Positions 1-17,100 of a stretch of 33,066 nucleotides of DNA are shown one piece after another; position 1 is the stretch's first letter; each line of letters starts with the position of its first letter. A model generated the notes under the pieces. It saw nothing but the letters and a program-made list of their open reading frames with translations, made no database searches and was not told where the DNA came from. The DNA is from Flavobacteriia bacterium (GTDB taxonomy: Bacteria; Bacteroidota; Bacteroidia; Flavobacteriales_D; Crocinitomicaceae). A program made the position numbers and the translations under genes. The DNA is taken from positions 1 to 33,066 of the forward strand of contig JACPDW010000005.1 in assembly GCA_016183815.1 (NCBI GenBank). The letters are read 5' to 3'.

Positions 1-1
1 T

Positions 2-474: not shown

Positions 475-493
475 ATTAATTTTACAATGGTAA

Positions 494-566: not shown

Positions 567-582
567 AAATTTTGTACCTTTG
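552..582 (+). promoter_or_regulatory. Bacteroidota-type promoter of TA module 1
   Basis: TTG at 552-554 and TACCTTTG at 575-582 fit the minus-33/minus-7 (TAnnTTTG) consensus with a 20-base spacer. Transcription would begin near 589, so translation should begin at ATG 609 rather than at the upstream in-frame start inside the promoter. Confidence 0.7.
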
Positions 583-608
583 TTAGGGATTTTGATAAAT
601 CAATAGTT

Positions 609-839: not shown

Positions 840-1152
840 AGGCGATATTGTTTTAATCTCATTTCCTTTTACTGATTTAAGTGGTACTAAATTAAGACCA
901 GCAGTAATTTTAATTGAATCCTCTATCGATTTAACAGTTTGTTTTATCACTTCAAATTTGGATTGGAAAACACCAACAGATATTATTTTAAATCCATCAA
1001 CTTTAAATGGAATTAAAAAGACTTCATTAATTCGAACAAACAAAATAGCAACAATTCATAAGAACTTAAACAAAGGAAGAATTGGTCAATTAAATGAAAA
1101 AGAAGCACTTATGTTAAATGAGAAACTTAAAATATTATTAAAACTTGATTGA
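832..1152 (+). CDS. MazF/PemK-family toxin (endoribonuclease)
   Basis: A 106-residue protein opening with MIKGDIVLISFPFTDLSGTK followed by LRPAVIL. This is the signature of the PemK/MazF/Kid fold: G-D-I-V, then a loop, then R-P-A-V. Characterised members are sequence-specific mRNA or tRNA endonucleases neutralised by the upstream antitoxin. The K/R-P-A-V-I-L strand and the later SLIRTNKIATI segment, which carries the usual conserved Ser/Thr and Arg, are present, so the protein looks intact. The length is normal for the family. It overlaps the antitoxin gene by 8 bases in another frame. Cleavage specificity cannot be read from sequence. Confidence 0.88.
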   Translation: MIKGDIVLISFPFTDLSGTKLRPAVILIESSIDLTVCFITSNLDWKTPTDIILNPSTLNGIKKTSLIRTNKIATIHKNLNKGRIGQLNEKEALMLNEKLKILLKLD

Positions 1153-1293
1153 TAAATTTTAATTCTTCACTTTGATGGATTAGTAATCTAAGCCCTGTAT
1201 CTGTATCTGCATATAACATTAACATATAGGTAGGGAGATTAAAATAAATACGAGTTGCAAGTCAATAGGTCGTTTTAAAAACATGATTACTTC

Positions 1294-1645
1294 CCCCATG
1301 GAGGTCAATATTCAGGTACTTCGGTAAATAATAATAATTTTGATCCAAGTATTGGAGAGGGTACTTATACAATAACCTATACTTATTCAGATGCAAATGC
1401 TTGTAGTAACTCTGATAATGGAAATTTAACTGTCATTGAACCCAAATCCAGCAAGTTCAGAAATAACCATTGAAGTAAATAATGATTTCGATAACAACGA
1501 TATGAAACTATTTGATTTGTCAAGTAAATTAGTGTTTTCATCAAAAATCACTTCCAATAAATGTTCTATTGATGTTTCTTCATTTTCAAAAGGTATTTAT
1601 TTTGTTGAGATTGGAGGTGTGAGAGAGAAGTTTGTAGTGGAATAA
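1294..1645 (+). pseudogene. Truncated, frameshifted duplicate of the T9SS gene 3' end (repeat copy B)
   Basis: This nearly repeats the end of copy A. It opens with a partial surface repeat (PHGGQYSGTSVNNNNFDPS) and runs into the sorting domain. A 53-base deletion, corresponding to 113-165 of copy A, removes the linker and start of the sorting domain and shifts the frame at about 1440. The downstream frame (NPNPASSEITIEV to FVVE) therefore has no proper start. An in-frame stop at 1276-1278 closes the reading frame upstream. Copies A and B diverge right at the stop codon. It lies between TA modules 1 and 2. Confidence 0.85.
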
Positions 1646-1847
1646 CATAAAAGAAAAATAGCAAACAAGGCTGTCCAAATGGATGGCCTTGTTTGTTTAT
1701 TAAACTACCTGTGAAAATTAACTGTTTTACAACTTGAAACAGACACGATTTATCCCGTTTTTCGGGGAAAAGAATCTTTCAAAAAAGCTACTCAAGCTTG
1801 TAATCTTGTGTAATTTTGCCCTTTTAAAAAACATCATTAGCTTTTCA
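1569..1847 (+). repeat. 279-bp direct repeat, copy B (T9SS tail, terminator, promoter-like box)
   Basis: This block aligns without gaps to 2791-3069, with about seven differences by eye. It contains the last 25 codons of the T9SS tail, the hairpin at 1663-1694, a second small stem-loop (cccgtttttcgggg) and a TAATTTTG box at 1811-1818. It fills most of the space between the T9SS remnant and the HEPN gene; 1848-1955 holds only AT-rich sequence. Confidence 0.9.
1663..1694 (+). terminator. Hairpin terminator in repeat copy B
   Basis: A long stem (aaacaaggc pairing with gccttgttt, extended inward through two G-T pairs to gtcca/tggat) followed by a T-rich run. It lies 18 bases after the T9SS stop. 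The matching hairpin in copy C (2885-2916) has one base change that breaks a pair. Confidence 0.8.
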
Positions 1848-1955
1848 TAAAAACAAATTCTTATTTTATTTTTAGATAGTTAACATTTTTTATCAATTTT
1901 TGTTTGTCAGTAAAAACAAATTTAGAAGTTAACCAATTCATTGATTGTTTTTTTG

Positions 1956-1963
1956 TAACTTTG
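1956..1963 (+). promoter_or_regulatory. Minus-7 box of the HEPN/nucleotidyltransferase operon
   Basis: TAACTTTG matches the TAnnTTTG consensus and lies 19 bases before the ATG. The minus-33 element is not clear. The box is outside the 279-bp repeat, so the module brought its own promoter. Confidence 0.65.
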
Positions 1964-1982
1964 TTTTTTTAGCCAACAATAA

Positions 1983-2363
1983 ATGATTGACGTTAAAAAA
2001 CAAATAGATTACTGGATGAATGGGGCTGATGAAGATTTGGTAACAGCTGCATTGTTAATTAAAGAAAAAAGAATATTGCATGGCTTGTTTTTCTGTCATT
2101 TAGTAATTGAAAAAGCTATTAAAGCTCATGTTGTTAAGAATTCTGGTGAGGTAGCACCAAGATCACATAATTTGATATATTTATCCGAAAAAACAGATTT
2201 ATCATTTGAGAACGATTGCGAAATGTTCTTGGGAATACTAATGAAATATCAATTGCAAGGAAGATATCCAGATTATAATCCTGTTCTTCCAGACATTTCA
2301 AAAATTAATGAATATTTCGAAAAAACTAAAATTATATTAGAATGGTTAAAAGAGAAATTATAG
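1983..2363 (+). CDS. HEPN-domain protein, presumed toxin of a HEPN/MNT module
   Basis: A 126-residue all-helical protein with the HEPN features of the PF05168 type: an early helix with AEDLxxA-like sequence (GADEDLVTAALLI), a hydrophobic helix FFCHLVIEKAIKA, the motif RSHNLIYL at about residues 60-67, and QGRYPDYNP near the C terminus. HEPN proteins next to a minimal nucleotidyltransferase usually act as RNase toxins or as targets that the partner nucleotidylates. I do not see the canonical R-x4-6-H nuclease motif; the only close pair is R60-S-H62. Activity could therefore differ from HepT. The gene overlaps its partner by 22 bases. Confidence 0.8.
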   Translation: MIDVKKQIDYWMNGADEDLVTAALLIKEKRILHGLFFCHLVIEKAIKAHVVKNSGEVAPRSHNLIYLSEKTDLSFENDCEMFLGILMKYQLQGRYPDYNPVLPDISKINEYFEKTKIILEWLKEKL

Positions 2364-2650
2364 AGATATTGAAGAAATATATTTTTGTTTTAAGATCGGA
2401 GGGTATTTCTGTTGAAAAAGCATTTTTGTATGGAAGCTATTTATCAAATACAGCTACCGAAGAAAGCGACATTGACGTAATGATAGTTACTGAAAAAGAG
2501 GATGACAATTTATCTGGGAGAATTTGGAGTTTGACAAAAAAAGTGAATTCCAAAATAGAACCATATCTTGTAGGTAGAGCAAAATTTGCAGATAACGAAA
2601 ATTCACCCTTGATTGATTTAGTTAAGCGAACTGGATTAGAAATTGCTTGA
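2342..2650 (+). CDS. MNT-type minimal nucleotidyltransferase, presumed antitoxin partner of the HEPN protein
   Basis: A 102-residue protein of the DNA polymerase beta-like nucleotidyltransferase superfamily. The signature G-S-x10-D-x-D is complete: G31, S32, D43 and D45 in LYGSYLSNTATEESDIDVMI. The third acidic residue of the catalytic triad would be E73 in SKIEPYL. In studied HEPN/MNT pairs the nucleotidyltransferase neutralises the toxin by adding nucleotides to it. Here the catalytic residues are intact, so enzymatic neutralisation is possible. The start overlaps the HEPN gene by 22 bases; ATG 2342 gives the family's usual length. Confidence 0.85.
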   Translation: MVKREIIEILKKYIFVLRSEGISVEKAFLYGSYLSNTATEESDIDVMIVTEKEDDNLSGRIWSLTKKVNSKIEPYLVGRAKFADNENSPLIDLVKRTGLEIA

Positions 2651-2687
2651 CTTTGTAAAAACACTTTCTTTTTTGAAAATTGAGTAA

Positions 2688-2867
2688 ATTGAAGAAGACA
2701 AACCTAGGTATAACGCAGAAACAGAAAAAGCGATAAAAGATACTCGTGCTGGTAATGGATTAAAAAAAGTGAAAAATTCCAAAGAACTTTTTGATGTTTC
2801 ATCATTTTCAAAAGGTATTTATTTTGTTGAGATTGGAGGTTTGAGAGAGAAGTTTGTAGTGGAATAA
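2688..2867 (+). pseudogene. Antitoxin C-terminal fragment fused in frame to the T9SS tail
   Basis: The open frame after a stop at 2685-2687 reads IEEDKPRYNAETEKAIKD and then TRAGNGLKKVKNSKELFD, which looks like the C-terminal half of a RelB/Phd-like antitoxin (AxEAI...GKGL...ELF). It continues without a break into VSSFSKGIYFVEIGG and the end REKFVVE of the T9SS sorting domain. The junction falls in the shared bases ttgatgtttc at 2791. There is no start codon and no toxin, so it is a remnant of a further TA module. The antitoxin resemblance is by eye. Confidence 0.65.
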
Positions 2868-3069
2868 CATAAAAGAAAAATAGCAAACAAGGCTGTCCAA
2901 ATGGATGGCCTTCTTTGTTTATTAAACTACCTGTGAAAATTAACTGTTTTACAATTTGAAACAGACACGATTTACCCCGTTTTTCGGGGAAAAGAATCTT
3001 TCAAAAAAGCTACTCAAGCTTGTAATCTTGTGTAATTTTGCCCTTTTAAAAAACTTCATTATCTTTTCA
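2791..3069 (+). repeat. 279-bp direct repeat, copy C
   Basis: This is the second copy of the block at 1569-1847, of equal length and with about seven substitutions. It carries the T9SS tail end, the hairpin at 2885-2916, the ccccgtttttcgggg stem-loop and a TAATTTTG box at 3033-3040. It separates the antitoxin remnant from the YoeB-type module. Confidence 0.9.
2885..2916 (+). terminator. Hairpin terminator in repeat copy C
   Basis: Same hairpin as at 1663-1694, but the 3' arm reads ggccttcttt instead of ggccttgttt, turning one C-G pair into a mismatch. This is consistent with relaxed selection on this copy. Confidence 0.7.
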
Positions 3070-3093
3070 GACTTCATCTTTTCAACTAGAAAA

Positions 3094-3125
3094 TTGATTT
3101 TTCTATAAAAATTGTTATAACTTTG
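3094..3125 (+). promoter_or_regulatory. Promoter of the YoeB-type TA module
   Basis: TTG at 3094-3096 and TAACTTTG at 3118-3125 are spaced by 21 bases. The minus-7 box lies 16 bases before ATG 3142, so transcription would start after the TTG codon at 3136, which is therefore not the start. Confidence 0.7.
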
Positions 3126-3141
3126 TATAAATTGTTTGAAA

Positions 3142-3357
3142 ATGGCAACAATAACTTTAAAAATTAACGAAAAAACTAATACAGGAAAGGCAATCAAAAA
3201 CATGATATTAGCTTTGATAAACGTGCCAGATGTAGAAATTATTTCCGAAGAAAAAAGCCCTTATTCTCCTGCATTTATTAAAAAGGTAAGCAAAGCTCGT
3301 GCTGAAAAAGGAGGCATTACTGTAAATCCCGACAATTTATGGGAAAGTATAAAATAG
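3142..3357 (+). CDS. Antitoxin of the YoeB-type module
   Basis: A 71-residue protein beginning MATITLKINEKTNTGKAIKN. The first half has a beta-strand then helix pattern suited to a small DNA-binding dimer. The C-terminal half (SPYSPAFIKKVSKARAEKGG, then NPDNLWESIK) is charged and ends in the Asn-Pro-x-x-Leu-Trp-x-Ser-Ile pattern often seen in antitoxins paired with YoeB/RelE toxins in Bacteroidota. The function is inferred from this and from the 19-base overlap with the toxin gene. ATG 3142 is preferred to the in-frame TTG two codons upstream, given the promoter position. No named family is assigned. Confidence 0.75.
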   Translation: MATITLKINEKTNTGKAIKNMILALINVPDVEIISEEKSPYSPAFIKKVSKARAEKGGITVNPDNLWESIK

Positions 3358-3620
3358 TTCTTAAACCAACGGCGGTTAAAGATTTATTAAAACATAAAAA
3401 ATCAGGAAATGTAGCCACTAACAAAAAAATTGTCGCTATATTTAAAGAGCTTGAAAATCATCCGTTTACTGGAATTGGAAACCCAGAACAATTAAAATAT
3501 AATTTCATAGGGCTGTGGTCCAGAAGACTAAATCAAAAAGACAGAATTATTTATGAAGTCCATGAAAATATTGTAACTGTTGATGTAATCTCTGCATTGG
3601 GACATTATTCTGACAAATAA
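3339..3620 (+). CDS. yoeB: YoeB-like mRNA interferase toxin (RelE/ParE superfamily)
   Basis: A 93-residue protein with the YoeB core HPFTGIGNPEQLKYNFIGLW followed by SRRLNQKDRIIYEV. YoeB toxins bind the ribosomal A site and cut mRNA there. The residues aligned with the E. coli catalytic set are present: E50 in NPE, R62-R63 in WSRR and H89-Y90 near the C terminus (ALGHYSDK). The protein carries three or four residues after the usual terminal His-Tyr, a small departure from E. coli YoeB. It starts inside the antitoxin gene (19-base overlap), so the pair is translationally coupled. It looks intact. Confidence 0.88.
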   Translation: MGKYKIVLKPTAVKDLLKHKKSGNVATNKKIVAIFKELENHPFTGIGNPEQLKYNFIGLWSRRLNQKDRIIYEVHENIVTVDVISALGHYSDK

Positions 3621-4016: not shown

Positions 4017-4961
4017 TTATATAAGAACAATTTTAGAACGTTCAATAATTAAATTTATGTATTCTTGTTTATTGTCATCTTCTAAAAATGAATCGTTTAT
4101 TAAATGAATTGCTTTTGGTAACCACTTTTCAATTCTATTGTACGTTGTAATTATTTGTTTTTCATTCAGTTTTAATACAAATCCTAATCTGTCAAAATAA
4201 TCTTTTGTGAAGTTACTTTTTTTTCCACCCAACAACAAAGCACTTTCCTCTTTATCACTAGGAAGAATCAATTTGACGTTTAACAAATCATAAAAAGGGG
4301 AAAGAACCCAGCCAATATCTGATAAAAACATAGAAAAATTTTTTAAATGCATGTCATTATTACCAATCAAATAATTAAACAAGGTAACTTCAAAAAAACG
4401 CATTTTGTCCAATAAAGTATTAACAGAAAGCTCTCCAATTGTTTTTCCAAGAATTTCCATAGTTCCAAGATATTTATCGGCTAATTCTAAAATTTGTAGA
4501 AAATCAATCATGTGAATTTTAGATCCATTTCGCTTGCGATCAATGCGTTTGCTAATGAAACATAATTCTCCAGATTCTAAACGAATTAGATTAATAGGAA
4601 CAATATTTATTTTAAATAATTCAGCGAGTTTCATACTCAAATGTTCATTCTCTGGCATTTGAGGGTATTCAATGTTTTGAGGTTTTAATATATATTGACC
4701 ATCTAAGGCATTCAAAATCGTTAACCTACCGTGATGCCCATTTTCTAATTCAGACTTAATCCAACCCAAGGATAATTTTGCTTGAACACCTGGAACAGCA
4801 ATGGACAATTCAACAGCTTCTTTTGCTAATTTCTCCAGCTCAGAAAATTTGTAAGGTAAAATTGGGGCATCTGTAGTTCCATAAAACTTTTTTGAACATT
4901 TAGTATGATAATCAACTTCATTTTCATTCAATATTTTATAACAAGATATGCATTTATTCAT
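4017..4961 (-). CDS. hipT: HipT-type Ser/Thr kinase toxin (HipA core kinase domain)
   Basis: A 314-residue protein carrying only the HipA core kinase, without the N-terminal subdomain that is encoded separately upstream. It starts with a zinc-knuckle-like C4-x2-C7...H19-x2-C22 segment typical of Bacteroidota members. SIAVPGVQAKLSL (53-65) matches the Gly-rich/autophosphorylation loop, YILKPQN holds the ATP-binding lysine, LIGNNDMHLKNFSM is the catalytic loop (D-x-H-x-K-N) and LSPFYDLL is the metal-binding Asp motif. HipA/HipT kinases phosphorylate aminoacyl-tRNA synthetases (GltX or TrpS) and induce dormancy. A longer frame exists upstream but overlaps hipS; ATG 4961 lies 2 bases after the hipS stop. 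E. coli HipT has Ser-Ile-Ser in the loop; here it is Ser-Ile-Ala. Confidence 0.85.
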   Translation of the reverse strand: MNKCISCYKILNENEVDYHTKCSKKFYGTTDAPILPYKFSELEKLAKEAVELSIAVPGVQAKLSLGWIKSELENGHHGRLTILNALDGQYILKPQNIEYPQMPENEHLSMKLAELFKINIVPINLIRLESGELCFISKRIDRKRNGSKIHMIDFLQILELADKYLGTMEILGKTIGELSVNTLLDKMRFFEVTLFNYLIGNNDMHLKNFSMFLSDIGWVLSPFYDLLNVKLILPSDKEESALLLGGKKSNFTKDYFDRLGFVLKLNEKQIITTYNRIEKWLPKAIHLINDSFLEDDNKQEYINLIIERSKIVLI

Positions 4962-4963
4962 GG

Positions 4964-5290
4964 TTATTTGCTTTTTATTGCGTGTACACTTACTGCACCA
5001 ATTGCACTTCGACAACAAGCTAATAAAAGTCCCATTCTATCATTTTTATTAATTCTCCAGTTTTCAGCTGCAATATTTAATAACCAACCTTCAGGGATTA
5101 AACCATCAAAAAATGGAAATAAACGTTTACTTTTATACACGTTCCTTGTAACAGGCATATTGAAAGTAATAAACTGTTTTGGAAAGTTTGAGATATACTG
5201 TTCATCGTATTCAAATAAATACAAGCCTTGATCATTTTCAGTTAAAACACCAGCTTTTATCGAATTGTATTTAATAATTGCCTGTCTCAT
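4964..5290 (-). CDS. hipS: HipS-like protein (free N-terminal HipA subdomain)
   Basis: A 108-residue protein equivalent to the first domain of full-length HipA. It shows ITFNMPVTRN (the I-S-L-S-M-P strand), LFPFFDGLIPEGWLL (the F-F-x-N-L-L-P-E-G motif) and CRSAIGAVSVHA (the D-x-x-G-A-V-x-V motif). In the E. coli O127 HipBST system the free subdomain acts as the antitoxin for HipT, and HipB augments it. The same role is inferred here from domain content and gene order. It overlaps hipB by 20 bases at its start and lies 2 bases before hipT, so all three are likely translated from one message. Confidence 0.85.
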   Translation of the reverse strand: MRQAIIKYNSIKAGVLTENDQGLYLFEYDEQYISNFPKQFITFNMPVTRNVYKSKRLFPFFDGLIPEGWLLNIAAENWRINKNDRMGLLLACCRSAIGAVSVHAIKSK

Positions 5291-5486
5291 TTAATACTTT
5301 TATAGGACCCAATTCATGACCAAACATTAGTAACACTTGATTTACTTTTAACAAACTTAAATTTTCTTTCCCTTGTTCTATTTTTCGAACTACAGTAAGT
5401 GCGACACCCGTTTTTTCGGCAAATTCCTCCTGAGTTAAATTCAAATATTTTCGTCTTTTTTTAACGAAATCAGCTAGCACATTCAT
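5271..5486 (-). CDS. hipB: HipB-like helix-turn-helix regulator
   Basis: A 71-residue XRE-family protein. After MNVLADFVKKRRKYLNLTQE comes the helix-turn-helix EFAEKTGVALTVVRKIEQGK and a short tail GHELGPIKVLNETGNY. This matches HipB-type DNA-binding antitoxins that repress their own operon. The start at 5486 is chosen because it follows a TAATTTTG promoter box at 5505-5512; the longer in-frame extension would run through the promoter and operators. Three near-identical dyad sites upstream (5489-5586) are the likely binding sites. Confidence 0.85.
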   Translation of the reverse strand: MNVLADFVKKRRKYLNLTQEEFAEKTGVALTVVRKIEQGKENLSLLKVNQVLLMFGHELGPIKVLNETGNY

Positions 5487-5488
5487 TT

Positions 5489-5586
5489 TATATGTATTTA
5501 CATACAAAATTAGCAAAAATAAATTAATTATACGCATATACATATAAATAGTTTAAATTAGCACAAATTATATGCATTTAGATATA
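5489..5586. promoter_or_regulatory. Three phased HipB operators with the hipBST promoter
   Basis: Three related sites start at 5489 (tatatgtatttacatac), 5529 (tatacgcatatacatata) and 5569 (tatatgcatttagatata), spaced exactly 40 bases apart. The first contains a perfect dyad tatgta-tt-tacata. The minus-7 box TAATTTTG (minus strand, 5505-5512) directly follows site 1 and touches its edge, so binding there would block the promoter. The even spacing would place all three on one face of the helix. Confidence 0.75.
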
Positions 5587-5638: not shown

Positions 5639-6937
5639 TTACTCCAAACCATATTTCTCCATATATTTATTGTATAACTCTTTTTGAAAATTTTCCACTT
5701 TAACAAAATTTCCGTTAATTAAAATATGGCTTAATTGATTTGTTTTCATATCTAAAGCTGAACCTTTAGAAACAAAAAAAGTAGCATTTTTACCAATTTC
5801 TATAGAGCCAAAATCTTTATCGATACCAATAATTTTACATACATTAAAACTGATTGCTTTAATTGCTTCTTCTTCAGGAAGTCCATATGCCATTGCAGTC
5901 CCAGCTAAAAAAGGGATATTTCTTGCATTCATCGCTTCCATATCTCCTTCATTCTGCAAGCCAAATAAAATTCCCTGCTTAAACAATAAATAGGGGAGAC
6001 GATAAGGTAAATCAATTGCTTCGTCATCGTGTGAAGGTAACGAATGTACTCGAGTCAATAATATTGGTATTTCTGAATCCCTTATTCTATCTAAACAAAG
6101 ATACGATTCATACCCTCCAATAAAAACTGGATTTTTGATGTGATTTTCTTTAACAAAAGCTATAATATCTAAAAGTTGTCGGACGTGATTGGCATGAAAA
6201 TAGACTTTTTTATTCCCATTAAATAAATCTTTCATTGCTTCAAATCTTAAATCAAGGTCTTGATCTTTTTTTTGAAGTGAATAATGGTAAGCACTTTTAA
6301 AAAACAATTCCAATTCTTCGCACTCTTTTAAATAATTTTCATCTTGAGTTAAATCATTGTCTTTTTTTTGTTCTTTTTTAAATTGAATTGGATTGGGCCA
6401 GTGGACATGAATACCATCATCAGCTTTTATAAGTGCATCTTCCCAATTCCAGCCATTAGAGAAAAAAATGGAAGAAGAACCACTAATTGTATTGCCTTTT
6501 GGAGTAGCTTGAACGATTAATATTCCATTTGTTAAGACCGTTTGTAACACCTTTGAATCAGTGTTAAACGTAGTAGCTGTTCGTATATGAGGATTCATCT
6601 TTCCTACATCGTGAAAATCTAAAGTCGCTCGGACGGCATCGATTTCTGTTAAACCTAAGGTTGAGTTTGAACTGACAAAAGCTGGATAAAGTGCTTGTTC
6701 ATTCAAATCAATGATTTTATTCCATTTTGTAGAATCAATTTTAAAAGAAAAAATATTTTGTAAAAAAACAATTTTGTTATTTTCAATTCCAACACTTGTG
6801 TTTTTTAAAACTGTTCCAAGTCCAGTGTGAACGGTAGCATTATGAAAAAGTATTCTATTTTTTTGACAGAACACATGCTGTAAACTTAAAAAACAGCATA
6901 CCAATAAAAGTTTTTTAAAAGGAATTTTCATAATCAA
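5639..6937 (-). CDS. Exported amidohydrolase-like protein, probably without metal ligands
   Basis: A 432-residue protein with a signal peptide (KLLLVCCFLSLQHVFCQ) and the layout of the imidazolonepropionase/dihydroorotase-like amidohydrolases: an N-terminal beta-sandwich strand set (RILFHNATVHTGLG), a long barrel, and a C-terminal IGIDKDFGSIEIGKNATFFV segment that closes the sandwich. The usual metal-binding H-x-H after strand 1 (G-x-x-D-x-H-x-H) is replaced by FVSSNSTLG, so catalysis is doubtful. It overlaps the 3' end of the larger amidohydrolase gene by 4 bases, suggesting a co-translated pair that may form a mixed complex. Substrate unknown. Confidence 0.8.
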   Translation of the reverse strand: MIMKIPFKKLLLVCCFLSLQHVFCQKNRILFHNATVHTGLGTVLKNTSVGIENNKIVFLQNIFSFKIDSTKWNKIIDLNEQALYPAFVSSNSTLGLTEIDAVRATLDFHDVGKMNPHIRTATTFNTDSKVLQTVLTNGILIVQATPKGNTISGSSSIFFSNGWNWEDALIKADDGIHVHWPNPIQFKKEQKKDNDLTQDENYLKECEELELFFKSAYHYSLQKKDQDLDLRFEAMKDLFNGNKKVYFHANHVRQLLDIIAFVKENHIKNPVFIGGYESYLCLDRIRDSEIPILLTRVHSLPSHDDEAIDLPYRLPYLLFKQGILFGLQNEGDMEAMNARNIPFLAGTAMAYGLPEEEAIKAISFNVCKIIGIDKDFGSIEIGKNATFFVSKGSALDMKTNQLSHILINGNFVKVENFQKELYNKYMEKYGLE

Positions 6938-9900
6938 TGCATATTTTCTTCTTCAGTTGCTTCTTCTCCAATGGTGTTACAATGAAAAGTACCACGTCTT
7001 TTTTTCACGTAAGGTTTAGATTTTGCACCACTTTGATTTTGATTAAGCATTTTTGTAATTAACCTCATTTTTTCTTCATTATTCTGTTTTTCAAGAACTT
7101 GGTTGTAAGAACGGTCATAAAAAATTATCCCATCAATTATTGTATAATCTGCAATGGCTTCAATAGATAAAGGATTTGCTGTCCACAATACAACATCTGC
7201 ATCTTTCCCTACCTTAATACTTCCAATTCTGTCGTCTAAATGCAATAATTTAGCTGGATTTATTGTAACTAATTTAAGTGCTTCTTGTTCGCTAATATTA
7301 CCATATTTGATAGCTTTAGCTGCTTCTTGATTTAATCTTCTACCCATTTCAGCATCATCAGAGTTGATTGCACATATAATTCCCATTTTTGTCAACAAAG
7401 CTGCGTTGTGTGGGATTGCGTCATTTACTTCGTATTTATATGCCCACCAATCAGAAAAAGTGGAGGCACCAACACCGTGTTTTTTCATTTTATCAGCAAC
7501 CTTATATCCTTCTAAAATATGTGTAAAGGTATTTACTGTAAAGCCAAAAGAATCAGCTACATGCATTAACATATTAATCTCAGATTGAACATAAGAATGG
7601 CAAGTTATAAATCGTTTTTTTTCAATAATTTCTGCTAAGGCTTCTAATTCCAAATCTGTATAAAAATCAGGTTTATTGGCTTTTTTTTCCTTTAAATACT
7701 TTTGGGCACGGGTGAAAGCATCCATCATCACTTGTTCAACACCCATTCTTGTCTGTGGAAAACGATGTCTATTAAAATCACCCCAATTGCTTTGTTTAAC
7801 ATTTTCACCAAGAGCAAATTTTATAAATTTAGGAGCGTTAGAAATCAACATTTCATCAGGCGAATAACCCCATTTTAGTTTTATAATTGCCGATTGTCCA
7901 CCAATAGGATTTGCAGAGCCATGTAATAGCTGAGAGGTACAAACCCCACCACTTAATTGCCTGTAAATATTTATATCATCGGGTTTGATGACATCGCTTA
8001 ATTTCACCTCTGAGGTTATAGCATGTGATCCTTCATTAACACCTTTAGTTATTGCTATATGTGAATGTTCATCTATAATACCCGCTGTAAGATGTTTACC
8101 TTTGCCATCTAAAATAATATCTACTTTTTCAGATATTTTATCCTTGCTGATTTGTTTAATTTTACCATTCTCAATCAATACATTGGCGTCTTCTAAAACA
8201 CCTTCTTTTTCGTTCGTCCAAACAGTTGTATGTTCGATTAAAATTTTCTTTTGTTGTGGTTTTTCTTTAAATCCAAATGAAGTATTTGGAAACCATAAAG
8301 CACCCAGTTCTTCTGTTGATTTTTCGTCTTTTTTGTCTTCATTAACTATTTTCGATTCATGATTTTTAACGGCTGTCCATTTTATCCAATTTCCTTTACT
8401 ATCAAGACCATCTCCTTCAATGATTGAATGTTTTTTTAAGTATTTTCCATGTAAAGTAAAAGTTAATTTATTTGAGCCAGTGTCTTGTATAATTTTAAGT
8501 ATGAGGTCGTCGCTTGACTTTTCTAAACTACTTGAATACAATACAGTATCCACTAAACTAATTTTTTCTTTGACGTTAATTTTATTTTTTGGGTTATTTT
8601 GAGTTTTTACTTCTTTTTTTTCAATAATTTGATAAACTTTTGTACTTGGTTTAAGCCAGTTTTCGCCAAAAATTTTTAGTTTATACAGCTCATTTCCAAT
8701 GTTTAAATTGTATTCACCTCTTATGTCAACCAATTCATTAACTTGATGAATTTTACGTATGCCATCACACCAAGTTTCTGAAGCTTGAGTTTCTTTTTCA
8801 AAAGGATTGACTTCATAAATACTAAAAAAAGCCAATTTATTTTCTTCGATAGAACCGTATTCCTTCTCAATACCTAATATTTTTGCAGGTGTTAAAGTCA
8901 GGGCTTTTAGAATGTGTTCAAAACTAACGCCTGTTTTAATTATTTTATGAATATTTTTCCAAAAATCGTTAGCTGAAATATTATTTGAGCTAAAAGCAAT
9001 CTCCCATTTTTCTTTTAGTAAAAATTTAAAATTATAAGGAGCTAATTCCCAATATTTTAAATCTTTTAAGGGAATTTCTTTTGAAATATAAGGGTCTGAA
9101 ATGTCATAATTATCAGGAAAAGTTAAAGGTAAAATAAGTGATTGAATTTGATTTTTTTTCAAATCATCGATAATTTCAAATTCATTACCTGAAGTAATAT
9201 AGTGAAAAGAAATAGAAAATTCATCCGCAATTTTTTTTGCTCTAATGATGTCGTATTTGTCTTCTGCTAAAAAAAATAATTTTTTAACTTTCTGTTTATT
9301 TAACTCCTCTAAAGAAATATTTACATTTTTTTTCGTTGCTTTAGAATACCAAATAGCATCATAAAAGGTTTGTCTCAAAAGAGCAACACTTCCCATTAAA
9401 GAGGAGGGATAATCGTTTTTTGATGTGCCTTTATTGAATGAAAAATAAGCTGCACTTTGATTTTTAACAAGATGGTTTTGGTCGTAATTTGTAACAGTTT
9501 TTAGCAAACAAGAATATCCTCTAGCAATACCGTCATTCAGATGGTTGTTTACTAATCCAAAACCCATTTTATTGTATTCGTCAATTTCTTTTGAACTTTT
9601 TAATGGAATTAAAGAGGCATCAAATTCGGGATGAATAGCTTCGTTCCAATAATACGGAGAAGTTGATTCTTCTTGTTGATTCTTCTTGTTTAAATATTCT
9701 GGTTTAGATAGTGAAATGGAAGCGTTTAATTCAATAAAAGATGGAAGAATAAATTTGTTTGTATAATCAAGAACTAAAATTTCTTCAGAAAATGAAAGGT
9801 TTTTTCCAATTTTAACAATTTTGTTTCCTTCAATTAAAATATCGCAATTGTTTATTATTTCTCCATTTTTAGAGAATACATTTGCATTTGTAAGGGCTAT

Positions 9901-10008
9901 TTTTTTATATTCTGATGGTTTAGAACCATTAAAAGGAACTTGTTGTTGAGTAAAGTTTGAATTAAAAAATACAGACAAAAAAAGAAACAGAAATATTCGT
10001 TTTTGCAT
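6934..10008 (-). CDS. Large exported two-domain amidohydrolase
   Basis: A 1024-residue protein with signal peptide MQKRIFLFLFLSVFFNSNFT. Two amidohydrolase-like units are visible. The first (about 30-420) keeps the fold signature (IALTNANVFSKNG; ILGIEKEYGSIEENKLAFF) but has FIELNAS where the H-x-H should be. The second (about 590-980) has an intact GIIDEHSHIAI motif near residue 646, ITCHSYVQSEIN near 800, FTHILEG and INSDDAE near 880, the expected metal and catalytic positions. It may hydrolyse cyclic amides or peptides in the periplasm; the substrate is not predictable. Its first 22 codons and promoter region are duplicated at 12059-12201. Confidence 0.85.
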   Translation of the reverse strand: MQKRIFLFLFLSVFFNSNFTQQQVPFNGSKPSEYKKIALTNANVFSKNGEIINNCDILIEGNKIVKIGKNLSFSEEILVLDYTNKFILPSFIELNASISLSKPEYLNKKNQQEESTSPYYWNEAIHPEFDASLIPLKSSKEIDEYNKMGFGLVNNHLNDGIARGYSCLLKTVTNYDQNHLVKNQSAAYFSFNKGTSKNDYPSSLMGSVALLRQTFYDAIWYSKATKKNVNISLEELNKQKVKKLFFLAEDKYDIIRAKKIADEFSISFHYITSGNEFEIIDDLKKNQIQSLILPLTFPDNYDISDPYISKEIPLKDLKYWELAPYNFKFLLKEKWEIAFSSNNISANDFWKNIHKIIKTGVSFEHILKALTLTPAKILGIEKEYGSIEENKLAFFSIYEVNPFEKETQASETWCDGIRKIHQVNELVDIRGEYNLNIGNELYKLKIFGENWLKPSTKVYQIIEKKEVKTQNNPKNKINVKEKISLVDTVLYSSSLEKSSDDLILKIIQDTGSNKLTFTLHGKYLKKHSIIEGDGLDSKGNWIKWTAVKNHESKIVNEDKKDEKSTEELGALWFPNTSFGFKEKPQQKKILIEHTTVWTNEKEGVLEDANVLIENGKIKQISKDKISEKVDIILDGKGKHLTAGIIDEHSHIAITKGVNEGSHAITSEVKLSDVIKPDDINIYRQLSGGVCTSQLLHGSANPIGGQSAIIKLKWGYSPDEMLISNAPKFIKFALGENVKQSNWGDFNRHRFPQTRMGVEQVMMDAFTRAQKYLKEKKANKPDFYTDLELEALAEIIEKKRFITCHSYVQSEINMLMHVADSFGFTVNTFTHILEGYKVADKMKKHGVGASTFSDWWAYKYEVNDAIPHNAALLTKMGIICAINSDDAEMGRRLNQEAAKAIKYGNISEQEALKLVTINPAKLLHLDDRIGSIKVGKDADVVLWTANPLSIEAIADYTIIDGIIFYDRSYNQVLEKQNNEEKMRLITKMLNQNQSGAKSKPYVKKRRGTFHCNTIGEEATEEENMH

Positions 10009-10082
10009 TTTTTTTTGATGTAAAACTAATAAATTCTTTTAAATTTAAAGGTTGTGGTTTGATGTTTTTTTTGAAATAGAAT
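9942..10082 (-). repeat. 141-bp direct repeat, copy 1: promoter and signal-peptide region of the amidohydrolase gene
   Basis: This is nearly identical to 12059-12201, differing by two T residues in a homopolymer and one substitution. It covers the first 22 codons plus about 75 bases upstream, including a weak minus-7-like box (TAGTTTTA, minus strand, 10021-10028). Confidence 0.9.
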
Positions 10083-10124
10083 TAGATTAATTTGGAAAAA
10101 GGTGTTGAGAATGTTAGATTAGTA

Positions 10125-10862
10125 CTATTTTCCTAATTTAAATACTAAAGAGCCATAAAAACCTGAAAAATCTAAATTTATCGGATAATAGCCAAGGACA
10201 ATCCAATCAGTGTTATCTTTGTCTTTAAGTACTTTGCTTTCAAGCTGATTATAGCCTATTTTAATTCCTATTGAACTAAAAAACAATTTTTTAGTAATTT
10301 TATAATCAATCCCTAAAGCAAAACTTGCAAAAATATTTCGTGCTTTAAAATCTAATTGACGATTTACGGTGGAATAATTAAGTAAAGATTTGGTATAAGC
10401 ATAACCAAAAGTTGCATTAATTGAAGAAGAAAAATGCTTTGTATAAAAGTTTGTTTTTTTTCTGAAAAAAGGTAAGTAATAAGCAACTGATAAACCAAAA
10501 ATTTTAGCATCATTTTGAATTATTATGTCAGAATTTATAATATTAGAAGACTCATTATAAGGAAAATCAATTGTTGCATTTTCGAATTTTTCTTTGGAAT
10601 ATAAATAAGTAAATGTTGTTCCTATACTGAAAGTCGAAGAAATGAAATAATGAAAAACAACACTTCTATTGAACCCTTTTGTTGTTTTCACATCGTGGAT
10701 ATTATTGATTTTTGCAAAAGAATCAACATAATATTGATTAAATCGTTCCATAGCAAACGAGTTAACTCCTCCTGATACTTCAAAAAAAAATCTGACACCT
10801 TTTTGTGCTTGAAGTTCACCAACAAACAGCAGCAAAAACACCAAGACAATTTTTATTTTCAT
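10125..10862 (-). CDS. Outer-membrane beta-barrel protein
   Basis: A 245-residue protein with a clear signal peptide ending ELQAQ. It then alternates polar and hydrophobic residues in strands with aromatic girdles (VVFHYFISSTFSIGTTFTYL, FGLSVAYYLPFF, FASFALGIDYKI, LFFSSIGIKIGY) and ends FYGSLVFKLGK, as in the porin-like barrels of the OmpA/PorT type. It is probably an 8-10 strand barrel. It overlaps the upstream lipoprotein gene by 4 bases (ATGA), so the two are co-translated and may form a surface complex. Cargo or ligand unknown. Confidence 0.75.
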   Translation of the reverse strand: MKIKIVLVFLLLFVGELQAQKGVRFFFEVSGGVNSFAMERFNQYYVDSFAKINNIHDVKTTKGFNRSVVFHYFISSTFSIGTTFTYLYSKEKFENATIDFPYNESSNIINSDIIIQNDAKIFGLSVAYYLPFFRKKTNFYTKHFSSSINATFGYAYTKSLLNYSTVNRQLDFKARNIFASFALGIDYKITKKLFFSSIGIKIGYNQLESKVLKDKDNTDWIVLGYYPINLDFSGFYGSLVFKLGK

Positions 10863-11854
10863 GGAATAACAACTTCATCCGTATAAGTACTCAAGCTAAA
10901 TTTCACAATAGAATAGTCATATTGATAATAGGGACTAACCCTTCCTTCAGCATCATATAAGCATTTGTAATAACGTTTTGTTGCTAACAAATTTTTTCCA
11001 TCTGGAGAACAACTGATTTCCTCATATCCATAAGCACTACATTTTTGAGTTAAATTTTTTAGACTTTTCGTTGCAATATTTAGTTCAATAATGACACCTG
11101 AAACATTCTCCGTAAAATATAATAAGTTTTCGTCCTGCTTATTACAGGTGATACTTCTTGGAGTATAATCATCAAATTCTCTAATTAACTCAAAGTCATA
11201 AGGGAAGCTTGTTTTAACTCTTCCAATTGAATATTTAAGCTTATTCTGACTCGCTGGGCTTATAAACGAAAAATAAAGATTATCTTCTTTAGAGATACTT
11301 CCATATGCCATATCTGTAATTCTAACCGTATCAACTTGATTGGTAACTAAATCTTGACAAAAAATGTAGCTTTCCCCATAGAAAGGACTACTAATGTTAT
11401 CGTTTGTATGCTCATAAAATAATTTATTGCCCTCTTGATTAAAAATTGGATTACGGTTTTTTTCTGAAAGATCATATTGTGGGAATAGATTGTCTAAACT
11501 CATAAAAAATAATTCAAAACCTGTCGATAAATAAATTAATCCATTTTTATTGATACAATAATCATTAAAAATATATGATGATGAAAAAAGAGGTGTTGTA
11601 ATTTTGCTAGAAAAATCGTACTGACACATAACATATCCTTTTGGAGGGTCTGTAATCTTTCGATATAAAAATAGATTATTATTATTTGGAAAATAAAAAG
11701 GATTTTTCACAGGGTAACTTTCAGTGTTAATAGACATCATTACTGGTCCTACTTTTTTATTCGTAGTGGGAGCAGTACATTGGTCAAAAGGGATGTTGTC
11801 CACTTTGTTGCAGGAATATAATAAAATAATAAATGTAACGCAAATTAATTTCAT
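10859..11854 (-). CDS. Lipoprotein with a beta-propeller-like (TolB-like) repeat layout
   Basis: A 331-residue protein with a lipobox (VTFIILLYSC), so it is predicted to be a lipoprotein. Repeated segments with the PIFNQEGNKLFYEHTN, TCNKQDENLLYFTENV and SCSPDGKNLLATKR pattern resemble WD40/TolB-type propeller blades. The last has the classic S-P-D-G-K motif. Such proteins usually bind partners rather than catalyse. It lies 4 bases after the chimeric ORF and overlaps the barrel gene by 4 bases. The three form a single cassette between the two copies of the amidohydrolase leader. Confidence 0.7.
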   Translation of the reverse strand: MKLICVTFIILLYSCNKVDNIPFDQCTAPTTNKKVGPVMMSINTESYPVKNPFYFPNNNNLFLYRKITDPPKGYVMCQYDFSSKITTPLFSSSYIFNDYCINKNGLIYLSTGFELFFMSLDNLFPQYDLSEKNRNPIFNQEGNKLFYEHTNDNISSPFYGESYIFCQDLVTNQVDTVRITDMAYGSISKEDNLYFSFISPASQNKLKYSIGRVKTSFPYDFELIREFDDYTPRSITCNKQDENLLYFTENVSGVIIELNIATKSLKNLTQKCSAYGYEEISCSPDGKNLLATKRYYKCLYDAEGRVSPYYQYDYSIVKFSLSTYTDEVVIP

Positions 11855-11858
11855 AATC

Positions 11859-12125
11859 TTATTTTATAATCTTATGTGTATGATGTACATCCTCTATCAC
11901 ACCACTATTTTTTATTTTCTCTAAGTGTAAGGCAGACGTTGTACCATTTTTTACATTGCTGAATTGGTAAATATTAGCTTGATTATCAAGGGCATTGCTG
12001 TCTTGTCCTATGTCGCCAATATTTCCGCTGTTTGTTATCCAATCACGATTAATACATAGTTGTTGAGTAAAGTTTGAATTAAAAAATACAGACAAAAAAA
12101 GAAACAGAAATATTCGTTTTTGCAT
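11859..12125 (-). CDS. Chimeric small exported protein with a borrowed amidohydrolase signal peptide
   Basis: An 88-residue ORF. Its first 22 residues, MQKRIFLFLFLSVFFNSNFT plus QQ, are identical to those of the amidohydrolase at 6934-10008. The remaining residues (CINRDWITNSGNIGDIGQDS, then ALDNQANIYQFSNVKNG and a His-containing tail) match nothing I recognise. The join coincides with the end of the 143-bp duplicated segment at 12059. It may be a new gene made by duplication of a promoter and signal peptide onto a truncated reading frame, or a non-functional leader for the lipoprotein and barrel. Export is predicted; function is unknown. Confidence 0.6.
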   Translation of the reverse strand: MQKRIFLFLFLSVFFNSNFTQQLCINRDWITNSGNIGDIGQDSNALDNQANIYQFSNVKNGTTSALHLEKIKNSGVIEDVHHTHKIIK

Positions 12126-12201
12126 TTTTTTTTTTGAAGTAAAACTAATAAATTCTTTTAAATTTAAAGGTTGTGGTTTGATGTTTTTTTTGAAATAGAA
12201 T
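12059..12201 (-). repeat. 143-bp direct repeat, copy 2 of the amidohydrolase leader
   Basis: Second copy of 9942-10082, two bases longer because of an 11-T rather than a 9-T run just upstream of the start codon. It probably drives the chimeric ORF, lipoprotein and barrel genes. Confidence 0.9.
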
Positions 12202-12251
12202 ATAATTTTTGTCAGTTCTAAAATTTAAATAAGGCCTGATAAAAATACAAA

Positions 12252-14087
12252 TTAATAAACTTTTTTATATTTTAAAAGTTCAATTTGTAAATTTTTAATA
12301 CCAGATGGAGGAATATTTTTAGTAAAGTAAACGACTAAAGAATCATATTTATTTTGTTTAAATAAATTTTTAAAAAAAACGAAATGTGTTATTTTTTGAG
12401 CTTTATTACAAAACTTTATTCTTGATCCTATAAAAATATTTTTTTTTCTTTTAACTAAACCTTCTTTATATAAAAGATATACAAAACCTGGGTTAGTATC
12501 GGGATTATATATTATATGTTCTGAACTAACTTTTAATCCAATTCCAGAGTCATAATCTTTTAAAAGAATAGATTTAAAAATTTTCAAATCTTCATTCTTT
12601 TTTCCAAAATCAAAATTTGTTTGTTGTGGAGTTTGGAACCATATTTTTCTAAAGTTGTTATAATATATTTTTTTTGTATTCTCTAACTTCAAATTTTTAG
12701 GAACAGAACTGTCTTGGAAATATACAAACCAACAAAATCTTGAGCTAGTTCTTAAAAAAGGTGTCCAGAAATTTGATGAATTCATCTTTTCATAATGTAA
12801 AATATCTTTATTAAATTGGATTTGATATATTTGATAAAGAAAAATTGCAAACAATAAAAAACCAATAAAAATACTTTTTAAAAAGGTTGAAGATTCTTGA
12901 AATAAAAAAACAATAGGAATAGCTAATAAAATATAAAAATCAATATAAGTTCTCATTCCTAATCCTCCACCATACCACCAACACCACCACGATGATATGA
13001 GATATGTTATTAAAATAAAATTTAGAATAAATAGAAAAAAAAGCGATTTATTTTTTAAAAACAAAATTAAAATACCTGGAATTATTAAAAAAAATATTGG
13101 TGCATATATAAAAAGACCTTTTTTAAAGCTAAATAAAACTTCAAGCATTTTTGGATTTGTCCAACTTGAAAAGGATTCATTAGAATAAGAATTTAATTTA
13201 TAATTACCAGTTTGTAAATAAATATTCAGTATTTGAAGTGAAAATAAAAAGAATATTATTGCTAATAAGAGAATATTATTCCGATTTATTTTTAATAAAT
13301 ACAGCTTTAAATAATGCTTAAATTCTATTTTGTTTCTAAAAAAAAAAGGAAAACTAAATAATACAATTCCATTAGTGGGTCTAATTAAAATAACTAATGT
13401 TATACTAATCCAAAACATAAAAAAACTCGATTTTGAATATTGCATTTTGCTTTTCAAAAAAAAGTAAAAAGAGGCATTTATTAAAGCAAAAGAATATATA
13501 TGAGAATATGATGGCAAATAAACTACATAATGTTGCAACGAACTCCCCAATGATATAGCAATAAATACTAGTAGTATAATCCTTTTTTTAATTCCCAAAA
13601 GAATAAAAAAATTATAAAAAAAATAGAATGCAATGATAAAGTAAATTATTGCAGTAAAAGAAATAGTAAAACGATAACTATTAGAATATCCATCATTGTT
13701 ATGACTAAATGCACTTTTATAAAAATGATTAATTAAAAAAAAGGGACTTTGTAAAATTGCCGTTCCAATCCAATACTTATTTTTTATTTCATTAGGTTTA
13801 GCATATGGATTGGTTCCATTTATTAAATTTAATGTTTGGTATTTGTTCTTTATTTTTTTTAAAAATGAAAATTTTAAGTCACGATAAATAAAAACAGCAG
13901 GAAGATATGCATAATATCCTGAGCCATCACTAATTATATTGAAATTTGTTGTCTCTTTATCTGAAAACCATTCAAATCTGTCAAAAGAAAGAATTAAATA
14001 AAAAACTGAAATAGAAACAATTATTATAATTGGAGTTAATCTAAATGTATTTTTATTTAAGGAATTTTTAGTAATTTTAGAAAGCAT
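12252..14087 (-). CDS. Polytopic membrane protein, probable GT-C-type glycosyltransferase
   Basis: A 611-residue protein with about ten or more hydrophobic segments between residues 18 and 430, followed by a soluble C-terminal domain of about 180 residues. An acidic loop after the first membrane segment reads IISDGSGYYAYLPAVF. This placement and the D-G-x-G-Y-Y-A-Y-L-P sequence are typical of Bacteroidota GT-C-like (family 39-like) proteins that use polyprenyl-phosphate sugars. A conserved SWWCWWYGGGLGMRTYIDFY segment lies in a later loop. It is 23 bases downstream of the M1 peptidase gene in the same direction, so co-transcription is likely. The acceptor is unknown and the enzymatic role is inferred from topology and motif. 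Confidence 0.6.
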   Translation of the reverse strand: MLSKITKNSLNKNTFRLTPIIIIVSISVFYLILSFDRFEWFSDKETTNFNIISDGSGYYAYLPAVFIYRDLKFSFLKKIKNKYQTLNLINGTNPYAKPNEIKNKYWIGTAILQSPFFLINHFYKSAFSHNNDGYSNSYRFTISFTAIIYFIIAFYFFYNFFILLGIKKRIILLVFIAISLGSSLQHYVVYLPSYSHIYSFALINASFYFFLKSKMQYSKSSFFMFWISITLVILIRPTNGIVLFSFPFFFRNKIEFKHYLKLYLLKINRNNILLLAIIFFLFSLQILNIYLQTGNYKLNSYSNESFSSWTNPKMLEVLFSFKKGLFIYAPIFFLIIPGILILFLKNKSLFFLFILNFILITYLISSWWCWWYGGGLGMRTYIDFYILLAIPIVFLFQESSTFLKSIFIGFLLFAIFLYQIYQIQFNKDILHYEKMNSSNFWTPFLRTSSRFCWFVYFQDSSVPKNLKLENTKKIYYNNFRKIWFQTPQQTNFDFGKKNEDLKIFKSILLKDYDSGIGLKVSSEHIIYNPDTNPGFVYLLYKEGLVKRKKNIFIGSRIKFCNKAQKITHFVFFKNLFKQNKYDSLVVYFTKNIPPSGIKNLQIELLKYKKVY

Positions 14088-14110
14088 ATTTTTAACTTTA
14101 TAAAATCCAT

Positions 14111-17100
14111 CTAAAACATATTTTTAATCCTAAATGGAACATTAACGAAATTGATTTTTAAAGTCCATCGTATAGTTTCTGCATATGAGAAACCTGTTAA
14201 AGATTTTTCTAAATTATCGCTCATATACAAAGGGAAATATATACCTACTATTCTAAATAATCGTATTCCTAATCCAAATTGAGCGACTTTTTCAACACCT
14301 GAGACACCAGGAACAAAACCTAAATCACCATAAACTCCAAAAATTTTAGGAAGATACGGTAATTGTGCATATAAATTAAATGCATGCATATAACTTACGG
14401 AAGTTCCGTAATTACTCACACTTTTCAATCCTCCCATATTTTCCATTCTTTGCACAGAAGAATTTAAATTTTCACCATTTCTATTAATAAAATATTCCTC
14501 TAAAAATAAATCTTGAAGTCCAGCCGCTCCTGATAAAGCAAAACGATAATCTAAATTTGTTTGATTGAAGTTTATGTTTTGAAATGACCAGATGTTCCCA
14601 ATAAAATACCTTAATTCTATATATCTCTCACTTTTCTTTTTAATATAATTATAGGATCCTGTCATTTCATAAGAAGACCTAAACACATGGTCTTTATTCT
14701 CCATATTGTCCATGTAATCAATGCGTAGAATGCTATGGTATTTCCAATCTCTGTTCTCAAATCTTTCTTGATACTGAACAAAAAAACCAGCATGATGTGT
14801 GTAATTGTCTTCTAAAACACTATACACAGTAATCAATTTAGGATGATTATTAAAACTTTGGTCATATCGATAAGTCCCTTGAATATGAAGAGTATGTAAC
14901 ATTGAAGGACTTTTTTTTCTGTCGCCAAATTTCCAAAAAACATAAGGATTGAAACCGATAAAATAGGCATTTTCTACTCCATCCTCTTCTAAACTAAAAT
15001 GTTTTAAAGCAAAACCAACTCTTATAAGTTTGTTGAAATTTCCTGGGTGATAGGTTTTAGAAACTTCAGCAATTCCTTTAATTTTACCACTTTGAGTTGA
15101 AATGAATGGACTAATTAAAAATTGTACAGGTTTGAAAGGAAGTCCTAAATTGTGAACAGCAACACCTACAAGAAATTTATCATAAGAATTAAAAGCAAAA
15201 GTAGGAATAAGAAAAAGATTGGTTCTATTCTTTTCATGATCACCAATAAACATCTCAATTTTTAAAGGTTCTAATCGATGAAATCCTTTTTTCTTCCAAA
15301 TATTATCGTGCAAATACATTTCAGGGATTCTATTTGTAGGATTTAATTCTATTTTGTTGACACCAGTAATAGGTAATTCAAAAGTTTTTTTACCTTTAAA
15401 AGTTTCAGTTACAAAAAAAGATGAGTTTTCATTGGAAGTATAGGAAAAATTTATTGGTAAGGCAATTTTACTTTTGTTTTTGATACTTACATAAGTTTTT
15501 TCACCTTTAGTTTTTACCTTTTTTATTTGGAAATTTACAGGATAAGTTTTATTGATAAGATCATCAAAAAGCCACGATAAAGATTGATTATTAGATTTTT
15601 CAAAAATCAATTTTAAATCTTCTGGCTGAGGATGTTTAAATTTCCACGTTTGATAATATTCTTGCATCGTTTTATCAAATTTTTCTTCGCCAAATATTTC
15701 CTTTAAATAATGAAATGTTAATCCAGTTTTTTGGTACATGGTTAAACCGTAATTAATTGAAGAAAAATTTTCAGAAGAAGTTTCAATTGCTTGGTCTTCA
15801 CCTAAATAAGCCAATAATCTACATCCGTACTGACCTTGATGATAGTGACTTAAATCACTAAAATGTAGAACATCACCAAAACCATCTGAAAGTTGAGTAT
15901 TTTTCGGATATTTGGTGTACATATACCTCATTTCATTAAAAGTATTTAGTCCCTCATCCATCCAACCATGGACTCTTTCGTTTGATCCTAAAATACCATA
16001 AAACCAATTGTGTCCTACCTCGTGCACAATAACAGTTTCTAAAGTAATGTCACTATTAACTGAACCGATTATAGTAATGTTTGGATATTCCATTCCACCA
16101 CCAGCAGCTATTGTTCCATCTATGGCTGTTACTTGTTTGTAGGGATAATCACCATTCCAAAGAGAGTAATAGTAAATGCCATCGTGCAAATATTCTAAGG
16201 ATTTTTTCCAATATCGTGTATTTTGAGGAGTAAACATCGCCCATGTTGTTACTTTTTCTTTTGAATGAGGTAAAACGACGTCACCTTTTAAAACTAAAAA
16301 TCTTTTGTCGGCAAACCAAGCAAAATCGTGGACATCTTTTTGTGTGAATCGAATTGTTTTGTATTCAGTTGAGGACGGAGGAAATACTTTGTTGTTTTTT
16401 TTTCTTTCTTCCTTGGTTAATGATTTCCTTTTAATCGAATCATTTTCAATAATACTTTTAGATTCCTCACACTTATTATTCAAAAATTCTTCTTCCTGAG
16501 GCGATTGTAAATCACCTGTTGCCCCGACAACATAATTTTTAGGTAAAGTAATTTCCACTTCAAACGAAGCAAATTCAGAATAAAATTCACCTTGGTTAAG
16601 ATAAGGAATAGGATTCCAACCGTTTTTATCATAAACAGCAGGTTTGGGATACCATTGAGTAATCTGATACGATTCGCCTACATGACCTAATCGTGAAAAT
16701 TTAGAATTGGGAAGTTTTACATAAAAAGGAGTAGTAATGATGATTTTTTCACCTGAAATAAGCGGTTTGTTTAAAGTAATTTTACATATATCGATGTTTT
16801 TTTTATCTAATTCCCATTTTACTATTTCACCATTTATCTTAAAATTTAATGAATCAACCCAACCTTTGTCTTCATTTTTAGCATAACTCAACTCCTTTTC
16901 TCCCGCTTGATATAATTGTTTAGCTAGAGCTGTATGTTTATTTTTATAGGCATTTGGCCATAAGTGAAAATAAAGTTCATTTATTGTATTTGGAGAATGA
17001 TTAATATATTCAATCTCTTCAAAAGCACTTAAGGAATGAGAGACGTCGTTTAAACGAACAGATATTTTATAATTCACTTCTTGTTGCCAATATTGTGCAT

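Follow-up and report, generated by a model that had tools for sequence, protein, structure and literature searches.

Insertion with long target duplication was reportedly described in Helicobacter pylori by Nobusato et al. in 2000, and a paper by Furuta from 2010 is said to be a further primary work on the process. We know of no settled account of how short modules such as toxin-antitoxin and restriction genes, which have no recombinase themselves, change place. According to the available portions of the sources, the insertion of some restriction-modification systems creates target duplications that are long, variable and on the order of 100 bp (PMC3874152), and the process, which came to light when two strains of H. 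pylori were compared, often involves restriction-modification genes (PMC1643837). The same account is given in the accessible parts of two further papers (PMC3031569; PMC3154945). Here we describe a locus of comparable build on contig JACPDW010000005.1 of Flavobacteriia bacterium (Crocinitomicaceae; assembly GCA_016183815.1), of which positions 1 to 33,066, referred to as the window, were analysed. The beginning of an amidohydrolase gene, together with its upstream region, is present twice, and between the copies lie the remains of a surface operon of three genes, which probably entered the amidohydrolase gene behind its 22nd codon, with duplication of 141 bp of the target.

As in the described insertions, to the extent that the source portions cover them, the insert stands between long direct repeats (141 and 143 bp, 97.9% identical), the target gene is restored at one end, such that the amidohydrolase is open over 1024 codons, and elsewhere in the same genome repeat-insert-repeat structures are often found around toxin-antitoxin or restriction genes. 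By a criterion of our own, which separates the structure from transposons, the insert has neither a transposase nor terminal inverted repeats of at least 20 nt. The locus differs from the Helicobacter cases, as portrayed in those portions, in that its insert is the remnant of a type IX secretion system (T9SS)/lipoprotein/barrel operon with no restriction-modification cargo, which is frequent but not defining (PMC1643837). The duplicated target, made up of an upstream region and a signal peptide, is different as well, as is the host, a member of the Bacteroidota, and the four genomes of the genus that lack the insert at this gene can be compared only at 51-54% protein identity. In a limited literature collection no paper joined toxin-antitoxin systems, long target duplication and Bacteroidetes, and none of the papers on long target duplication named Bacteroidetes in its title; the literature on repeats flanking toxin-antitoxin genes, in the portions contained there, held nothing to the point.

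The duplicated segment and its promoter-like element

The two copies are located at positions 9942-10082 (141 bp) and 12059-12201 (143 bp) in the same orientation, with a start-to-start distance of 2117 bp (blastn E 1e-63). They differ by one substitution and by a 2-base length change in an A-run just 5' of the start codon. Each contains about 75 bp upstream of the ATG, which in the lower copy include TAGTTTTAC, and the first 22 amidohydrolase codons, encoding a signal peptide. A search of the organism's own genome returned the whole segment at these two places only, with three further matches of just 21-58 bp, which rules out a genome-wide scattered repeat family for the whole segment. The repeat comparison thus confirms the original prediction that a 141/143-bp segment with the upstream region and 22 codons of the amidohydrolase occurs twice, 2.1 kb apart, and supports the view that the copied segment heads an operon unrelated to the amidohydrolase.

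All genes of the locus are encoded on the minus strand. Their order begins with a 611-aa open reading frame (ORF; 12252-14087) with a weak glycosyltransferase-type match, followed by the upper copy with a chimeric 88-aa ORF (11859-12125), a lipoprotein-like protein of 331 aa (10859-11854), a barrel protein of 245 aa (10125-10862), and the lower copy with the 1024-aa amidohydrolase (6934-10008), the reading frame of which is intact. A second amidohydrolase (5639-6937) adjoins the first. The lipoprotein ORF starts 4 bp after the 88-aa ORF and is itself overlapped by the 245-aa ORF. The insert between the copies (10083-12058, minus strand) comprises 1976 bp with a GC content of 0.287, and its lipoprotein and barrel were not found in four other genomes of the genus. 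No transposase is encoded by its three ORFs, and none of the eight inverted-repeat pairs of at least 20 nt is located at its ends.

We regard the segment as belonging originally to the amidohydrolase and as borrowed by the inserted operon, because in all five genomes of the genus, this one included, the same amidohydrolase is preceded by the string TAG[CT]TTTAC, which starts 12-40 bp ahead of the gene; since two of them (G001 and G004) are near-identical at the locus, this amounts to about four independent observations. Of 647 ORFs of 100 aa or more in an 833-kb sample of this genome, two have the string in the 60 bp preceding their start, one being the amidohydrolase itself. The orthologues in the four other genomes are 51-54% identical to the amidohydrolase, match it from residues 4-7 through 1024, and are likewise adjoined by a second amidohydrolase, while at this level of identity none of the four pairs has a propeller/lipoprotein/barrel operon beside it. 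The string is promoter-like in that it contains TAnnTTT. The classic Bacteroidetes promoter has the form TTTG...TAnnTTTG, to which no full match was found within the duplicated segment.

The operon in relatives and the origin of the chimeric reading frame

Homologues of the barrel are present in 26 of 399 genomes of the order, 23 of 240 of the family and 7 of 395 of the class (with this genome counted each time), and in none of the four other genomes of the genus. At six loci (L045, L046, L048, L049, L051 and L073) a gene encoding 1,140-1,189 aa, hereafter gene 1, is followed by the lipoprotein and then the barrel, all genes overlapping or standing within about 10 bp of each other. In all six cases gene 1 combines Peptidase_S8, an SBBP propeller and Por_Secre_tail (Pfam), so that the recurring operon comprises a T9SS-exported propeller/subtilase of ~1,150 aa, a lipoprotein and an OmpA-like barrel. 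The operon is not known to have a published name, although no literature search was made for one. The set is not uniform, some barrel homologues (e.g. at L047 and L050) being without such a gene 1. With the operon of Fluviicola, Brumimicrobium and relatives the window shares a homologous lipoprotein and barrel in the same order as well as a tail matching gene 1, but its gene 1 is cut to ~200 bp and carries the leader and upstream region of another gene.

The window barrel is 34% identical to that of genome G209 (L022; E 7e-31), with a conserved PINLDFSG...GK end. Its AlphaFold2 model has eight long strands and modest confidence (predicted local distance difference test (pLDDT) 72.5, predicted template modelling score 0.68), and the best PDB matches are OmpA/OmpX-type barrels (OmpA 9fzc, E 4.5e-5), so that with modest confidence the 245-aa ORF is predicted to be an OmpA-like outer-membrane barrel. 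The lipoprotein is less conserved, with 16-22% identity to its relatives in an alignment and a blastp E of 3.8e-9 to that of L045; it has no Pfam match at E 0.1, its NCBIfam matches are sub-threshold only, and its model is mostly beta (pLDDT 68.5). Full-length gene 1 has no match elsewhere in the genome, only the remnant of ~66 residues being present. Brumimicrobium mesophilum (L052, 7464-10716) also keeps the lipoprotein and the barrel, with gene 1 reduced to about the last 127 codons. This remnant is bracketed by direct repeats of 81 and 96 bp, as assessed within the locus stretch, which reaches the contig end, whereas none of the six loci with full-length gene 1, tested in the same way, has bracketing repeats. 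A CA microsatellite is located near the truncation point.

In the 88-aa ORF the amidohydrolase leader is joined at two glutamines (QQ) to a tail that lies outside the duplication. By BLAST, the ORF matches gene 1 of L048 (39% over 59 aa, E 9e-9), L046 (3e-7) and L045 (5e-6), these alignments including some leader residues, and has no significant match to L049, L051 or L056. Without leader and QQ, the tail scores 27.1 bits against a profile of the six gene-1 mature N-termini, a score reached by none of 5,000 shuffled controls (best 16.0). The chimera has no Pfam match and lacks the protease and sorting domains. Its last ~12 residues (…VHHTHKIIK) find no clear match; they resemble the ends of gene-1 proteins (…KRIIKN, …KKIIKK), a likeness that an internal deletion would explain, but over too few residues to carry weight. 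The original prediction had likened the ORF to a secreted gene built de novo from a captured leader, had proposed to look for the tail in full-length proteins of relatives, and had counted the chimera as debris should relatives without the insertion carry a native full-length gene upstream of the lipoprotein and barrel genes. The tail did find such partners in gene 1 of L048, L046 and L045, and this homology to the mature N-terminus of a recurring exported protein leads us to reject a de novo secreted gene. In six relatives the lipoprotein and barrel follow a gene 1 of full length, and by that measure the chimera has the look of debris, from which a short functional product may be made. What appeared as a new exported gene is revealed by the comparison with relatives as a remnant.

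QQ at the signal-peptide boundary is common to the amidohydrolase and to gene 1 of L045, L046 and L048, so that crossing over inside CAACAA would account for a joint that is in frame. Such a QQ is in line with the Bacteroidetes Q-rule and may supply the CAACAA microhomology; the rule, in the accessible part of its source, concerns protein processing (PMC5837995), and a role in recombination is suggested here only. In a 433-kb sample evaluated with home-made rules, Q is present in the expected region of 76 of 124 signal-peptide-like ORFs, compared to 123 of 329 background windows, but QQ stands at the expected place in only five of the 124, chimera and amidohydrolase included, which makes the Q-rule a weak candidate for a general hinge of leader swapping. 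The literature on signal-peptide shuffling, in the portions at hand, offered nothing to the point.

At the locus the start and upstream region of gene 1 itself are missing, and the 204 bp from the upper copy to the lipoprotein contain no TAnnTTTG or TAnnTTTA string. That the operon inherits the regulation of the amidohydrolase is thus a fair inference, and it is plausible that the lipoprotein and barrel genes owe their promoter to the amidohydrolase copy. Judged by sequence, amidohydrolase and newcomer operon each seem now to have a promoter-like element and an export signal.

Similar structures in the genome and the history of the locus

The window and 40 arbitrary 20-kb stretches of the same genome (833 kb) were compared with themselves, yielding 25 raw repeat rows, six of which were dropped for lying inside one ORF or having a gap below 300 bp and four as overlapping rows. 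The 15 remaining repeat-insert-repeat pairs are distributed over the window (four), L129 (five), L132 (two) and L130, L131, L136 and L161 (one each), the pair in L131, which brackets a transposase, being counted. Pfam scans, which took in part of the insert ORFs, revealed clear toxin-antitoxin or restriction genes in six of the 15 inserts, namely PemK; HEPN with a nucleotidyltransferase; YoeB with a weak DUF2683 match; Gp49 with a helix-turn-helix protein; a nucleotidyltransferase with NTase_sub_bind; and an Eco57I-type methylase with Fic and ResIII proteins. Other inserts hold PDDEXK_3, DUF4160, GNAT, Bro-N, DUF559, a DDE transposase or an SBBP protein. With the same filter, 420 kb of a relative from the genus (G002) gave one doubtful pair, both copies of which lie inside large ORFs.

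From the duplication, the promoter-like element present in both copies, the tail homology, the full-length operon of relatives and the comparable structures elsewhere in this genome, we infer that the operon was acquired and entered the amidohydrolase gene by insertion. A 1976-bp piece with the remains of the acquired operon would have inserted after codon 22, and 141 bp of the target would have been duplicated, possibly through fill-in of a long staggered break or a backward template jump. Through the lower copy the amidohydrolase would have stayed complete and kept an upstream region and an export signal of its own, while the upper copy would join the amidohydrolase leader in frame, at the QQ common to both, to the N-terminal ~65 residues of the mature gene-1 protein. 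The joint may have formed at the CAACAA microhomology. The remaining roughly 1,050 codons of gene 1 would have been lost and the lipoprotein and barrel genes left open, presumably to be driven by the upper copy.

Several points weigh against this history. We found no close strain in which the site is empty, and with the nearest amidohydrolases at 51-54% identity the events cannot be read base by base. The insert is without a restriction or toxin gene. Gene 1 of B. mesophilum is truncated differently, with loss of the 5' part, so that truncation and insertion may have been separate events here. Moreover, the source of the tail could be a paralogue of gene 1: among 767 ORFs sampled from this genome, three besides the chimera have E below 0.001 with the profile of the gene-1 N-termini, namely the SBBP protein of L129 (57.0 bits for the whole protein, 23.1 for the best stretch), an ORF of L136 (41.8 and 13.0) and an ORF of L140 (15.8). 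Two of these exceed the chimera as whole proteins, whereas its best stretch of 28.7 bits is the highest single-stretch score, and gene 1 is a likelier source than a paralogue given that the tail immediately precedes the lipoprotein and barrel. The genomic context is also less clear-cut than the 15 pairs suggest. Five of them lie in L129, where the repeats partly belong to multi-copy families, so that the events may be fewer, and the excess over the relative is modest when the window is excluded (11 pairs in 800 kb versus one in the 420 kb of G002, one-sided p 0.046). Of 19 loci of the toxin-antitoxin-type families PF18765, PF05973 and PF06769, seven stand between direct repeats, compared to 3 of 150 random segments of the same genome (Fisher p 7e-6), but these families were picked after members had been seen inside repeats, with PF02452 left out, and outside the discovery stretches 3 of 14 loci remain (versus 3 of 150, p 0.009). 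PF18765 is a nucleotidyltransferase family, the members of which need not all belong to toxin-antitoxin systems, and two of the family loci have a stop codon within the match. In the genus relatives none of 11 family loci is bracketed, nor were any of the four cut by contig ends when re-tested with other placements; for random G002 segments the figure is 0 of 150.

The same final structure would also arise by tandem duplication and subsequent deletion, if a full operon had stood directly upstream of the amidohydrolase, a slipped exchange at CAACAA between gene 1 and the amidohydrolase leader had produced the tandem duplication, and most of one copy had then been lost. This would account for the in-frame QQ joint and for the order of barrel, lower copy and amidohydrolase, and it requires no donor. 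Yet the barrel was not found in the four other genomes of the genus, the operon does not stand beside their amidohydrolase, and unrelated modules of this genome share the repeat-insert-repeat structure, which makes this course of events rather unlikely. We regard it as distinctly improbable that the chimera functions as a small exported protein whose formation was favoured for restoring export. Although leader and tail are fused in frame at the boundary of the signal peptide, with a complete leader and 88 open codons, an in-frame joint is expected by chance in one of three cases, and the mature part consists of the first ~55 residues of the propeller region and an unmatched end, without the protease and sorting domains of the 1,140-1,189-aa proteins of the six relatives. 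An assembly artefact, suggested by two contig ends (L126 1-141 and L136 1-141) that share exactly 141 bp in opposite orientation, such that 141 bp is probably the assembler word length, is very hard to reconcile with copies that differ by a substitution and an indel within one contig and have different flanks on both sides, and with an insert that has the gene order of relatives.

Possible promoter capture and further modules of the genome

A 183-bp repeat at L129 (11384-11566 and 13972-14154, one base different) ends at its minus-strand 3' end with TATCTTTGT, which we take to fit the Bacteroidetes -7 pattern. This sequence stands 10 bp before the inserted T9SS SBBP propeller gene, and its second occurrence precedes the next gene, which is lipoprotein-like by eye and has no Pfam match, by about 100 bp. 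Two loci would thus support an arrangement in which a duplicated promoter-like sequence precedes the inserted gene, while the other copy precedes the downstream gene. Tentatively, a process in this genome might insert small modules with target duplications of ~75-370 bp, those spanning a promoter amounting to promoter capture that spares the donor gene, with the amidohydrolase locus and the SBBP locus of L129 as two cases. If this holds, the insert would be supplied with an expression signal while the target gene loses nothing, which would explain how acquired promoterless operons can be expressed immediately, and a genome with many repeat-insert-repeat structures would be a place to test recombinase-free movement of modules.

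L129 also contains a dense island of small modules (7500-15700; G000 C16) with several repeat families of 46-183 bp, including a ~90-bp repeat in five copies. An integron-like cassette array was considered for the latter and set aside because the repeats differ between loci, no search for an integron integrase having been made. A restriction-type island in L130 (6026-12757; G000 C16), with Eco57I methylase, Fic and ResIII/T5orf172, is located between 183-bp repeats that are 89% identical.

Within the window, a PemK-type module lies between repeats 1-369 and 1329-1644 and a HEPN/MNT module between 1569-1847 and 2791-3069 (1-3069, plus strand). In the wider region 1-3620, toxin-type modules of DUF2281/PemK, HEPN/MNT and DUF2683/YoeB follow one another in a row beyond the 3' end of a T9SS-type gene. 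The first and second of them lie between copies of the end of that gene and the following stretch, as if successively inserted near the same place. On the minus strand, an ORF for a GNAT acetyltransferase is bracketed by repeats 22203-22339 and 23327-23462 (137 bp, 93%); together with a 53-aa partner ORF (22203-23462) it is possibly a GNAT-type toxin-antitoxin pair. A HipA-type locus at 4017-5543 is split into three ORFs, one helix-turn-helix-like by eye and the others matching Couple_hipA and HipA_C. Similar ORFs stand together in L056, and the split arrangement presumably resembles the tripartite HipBST systems.

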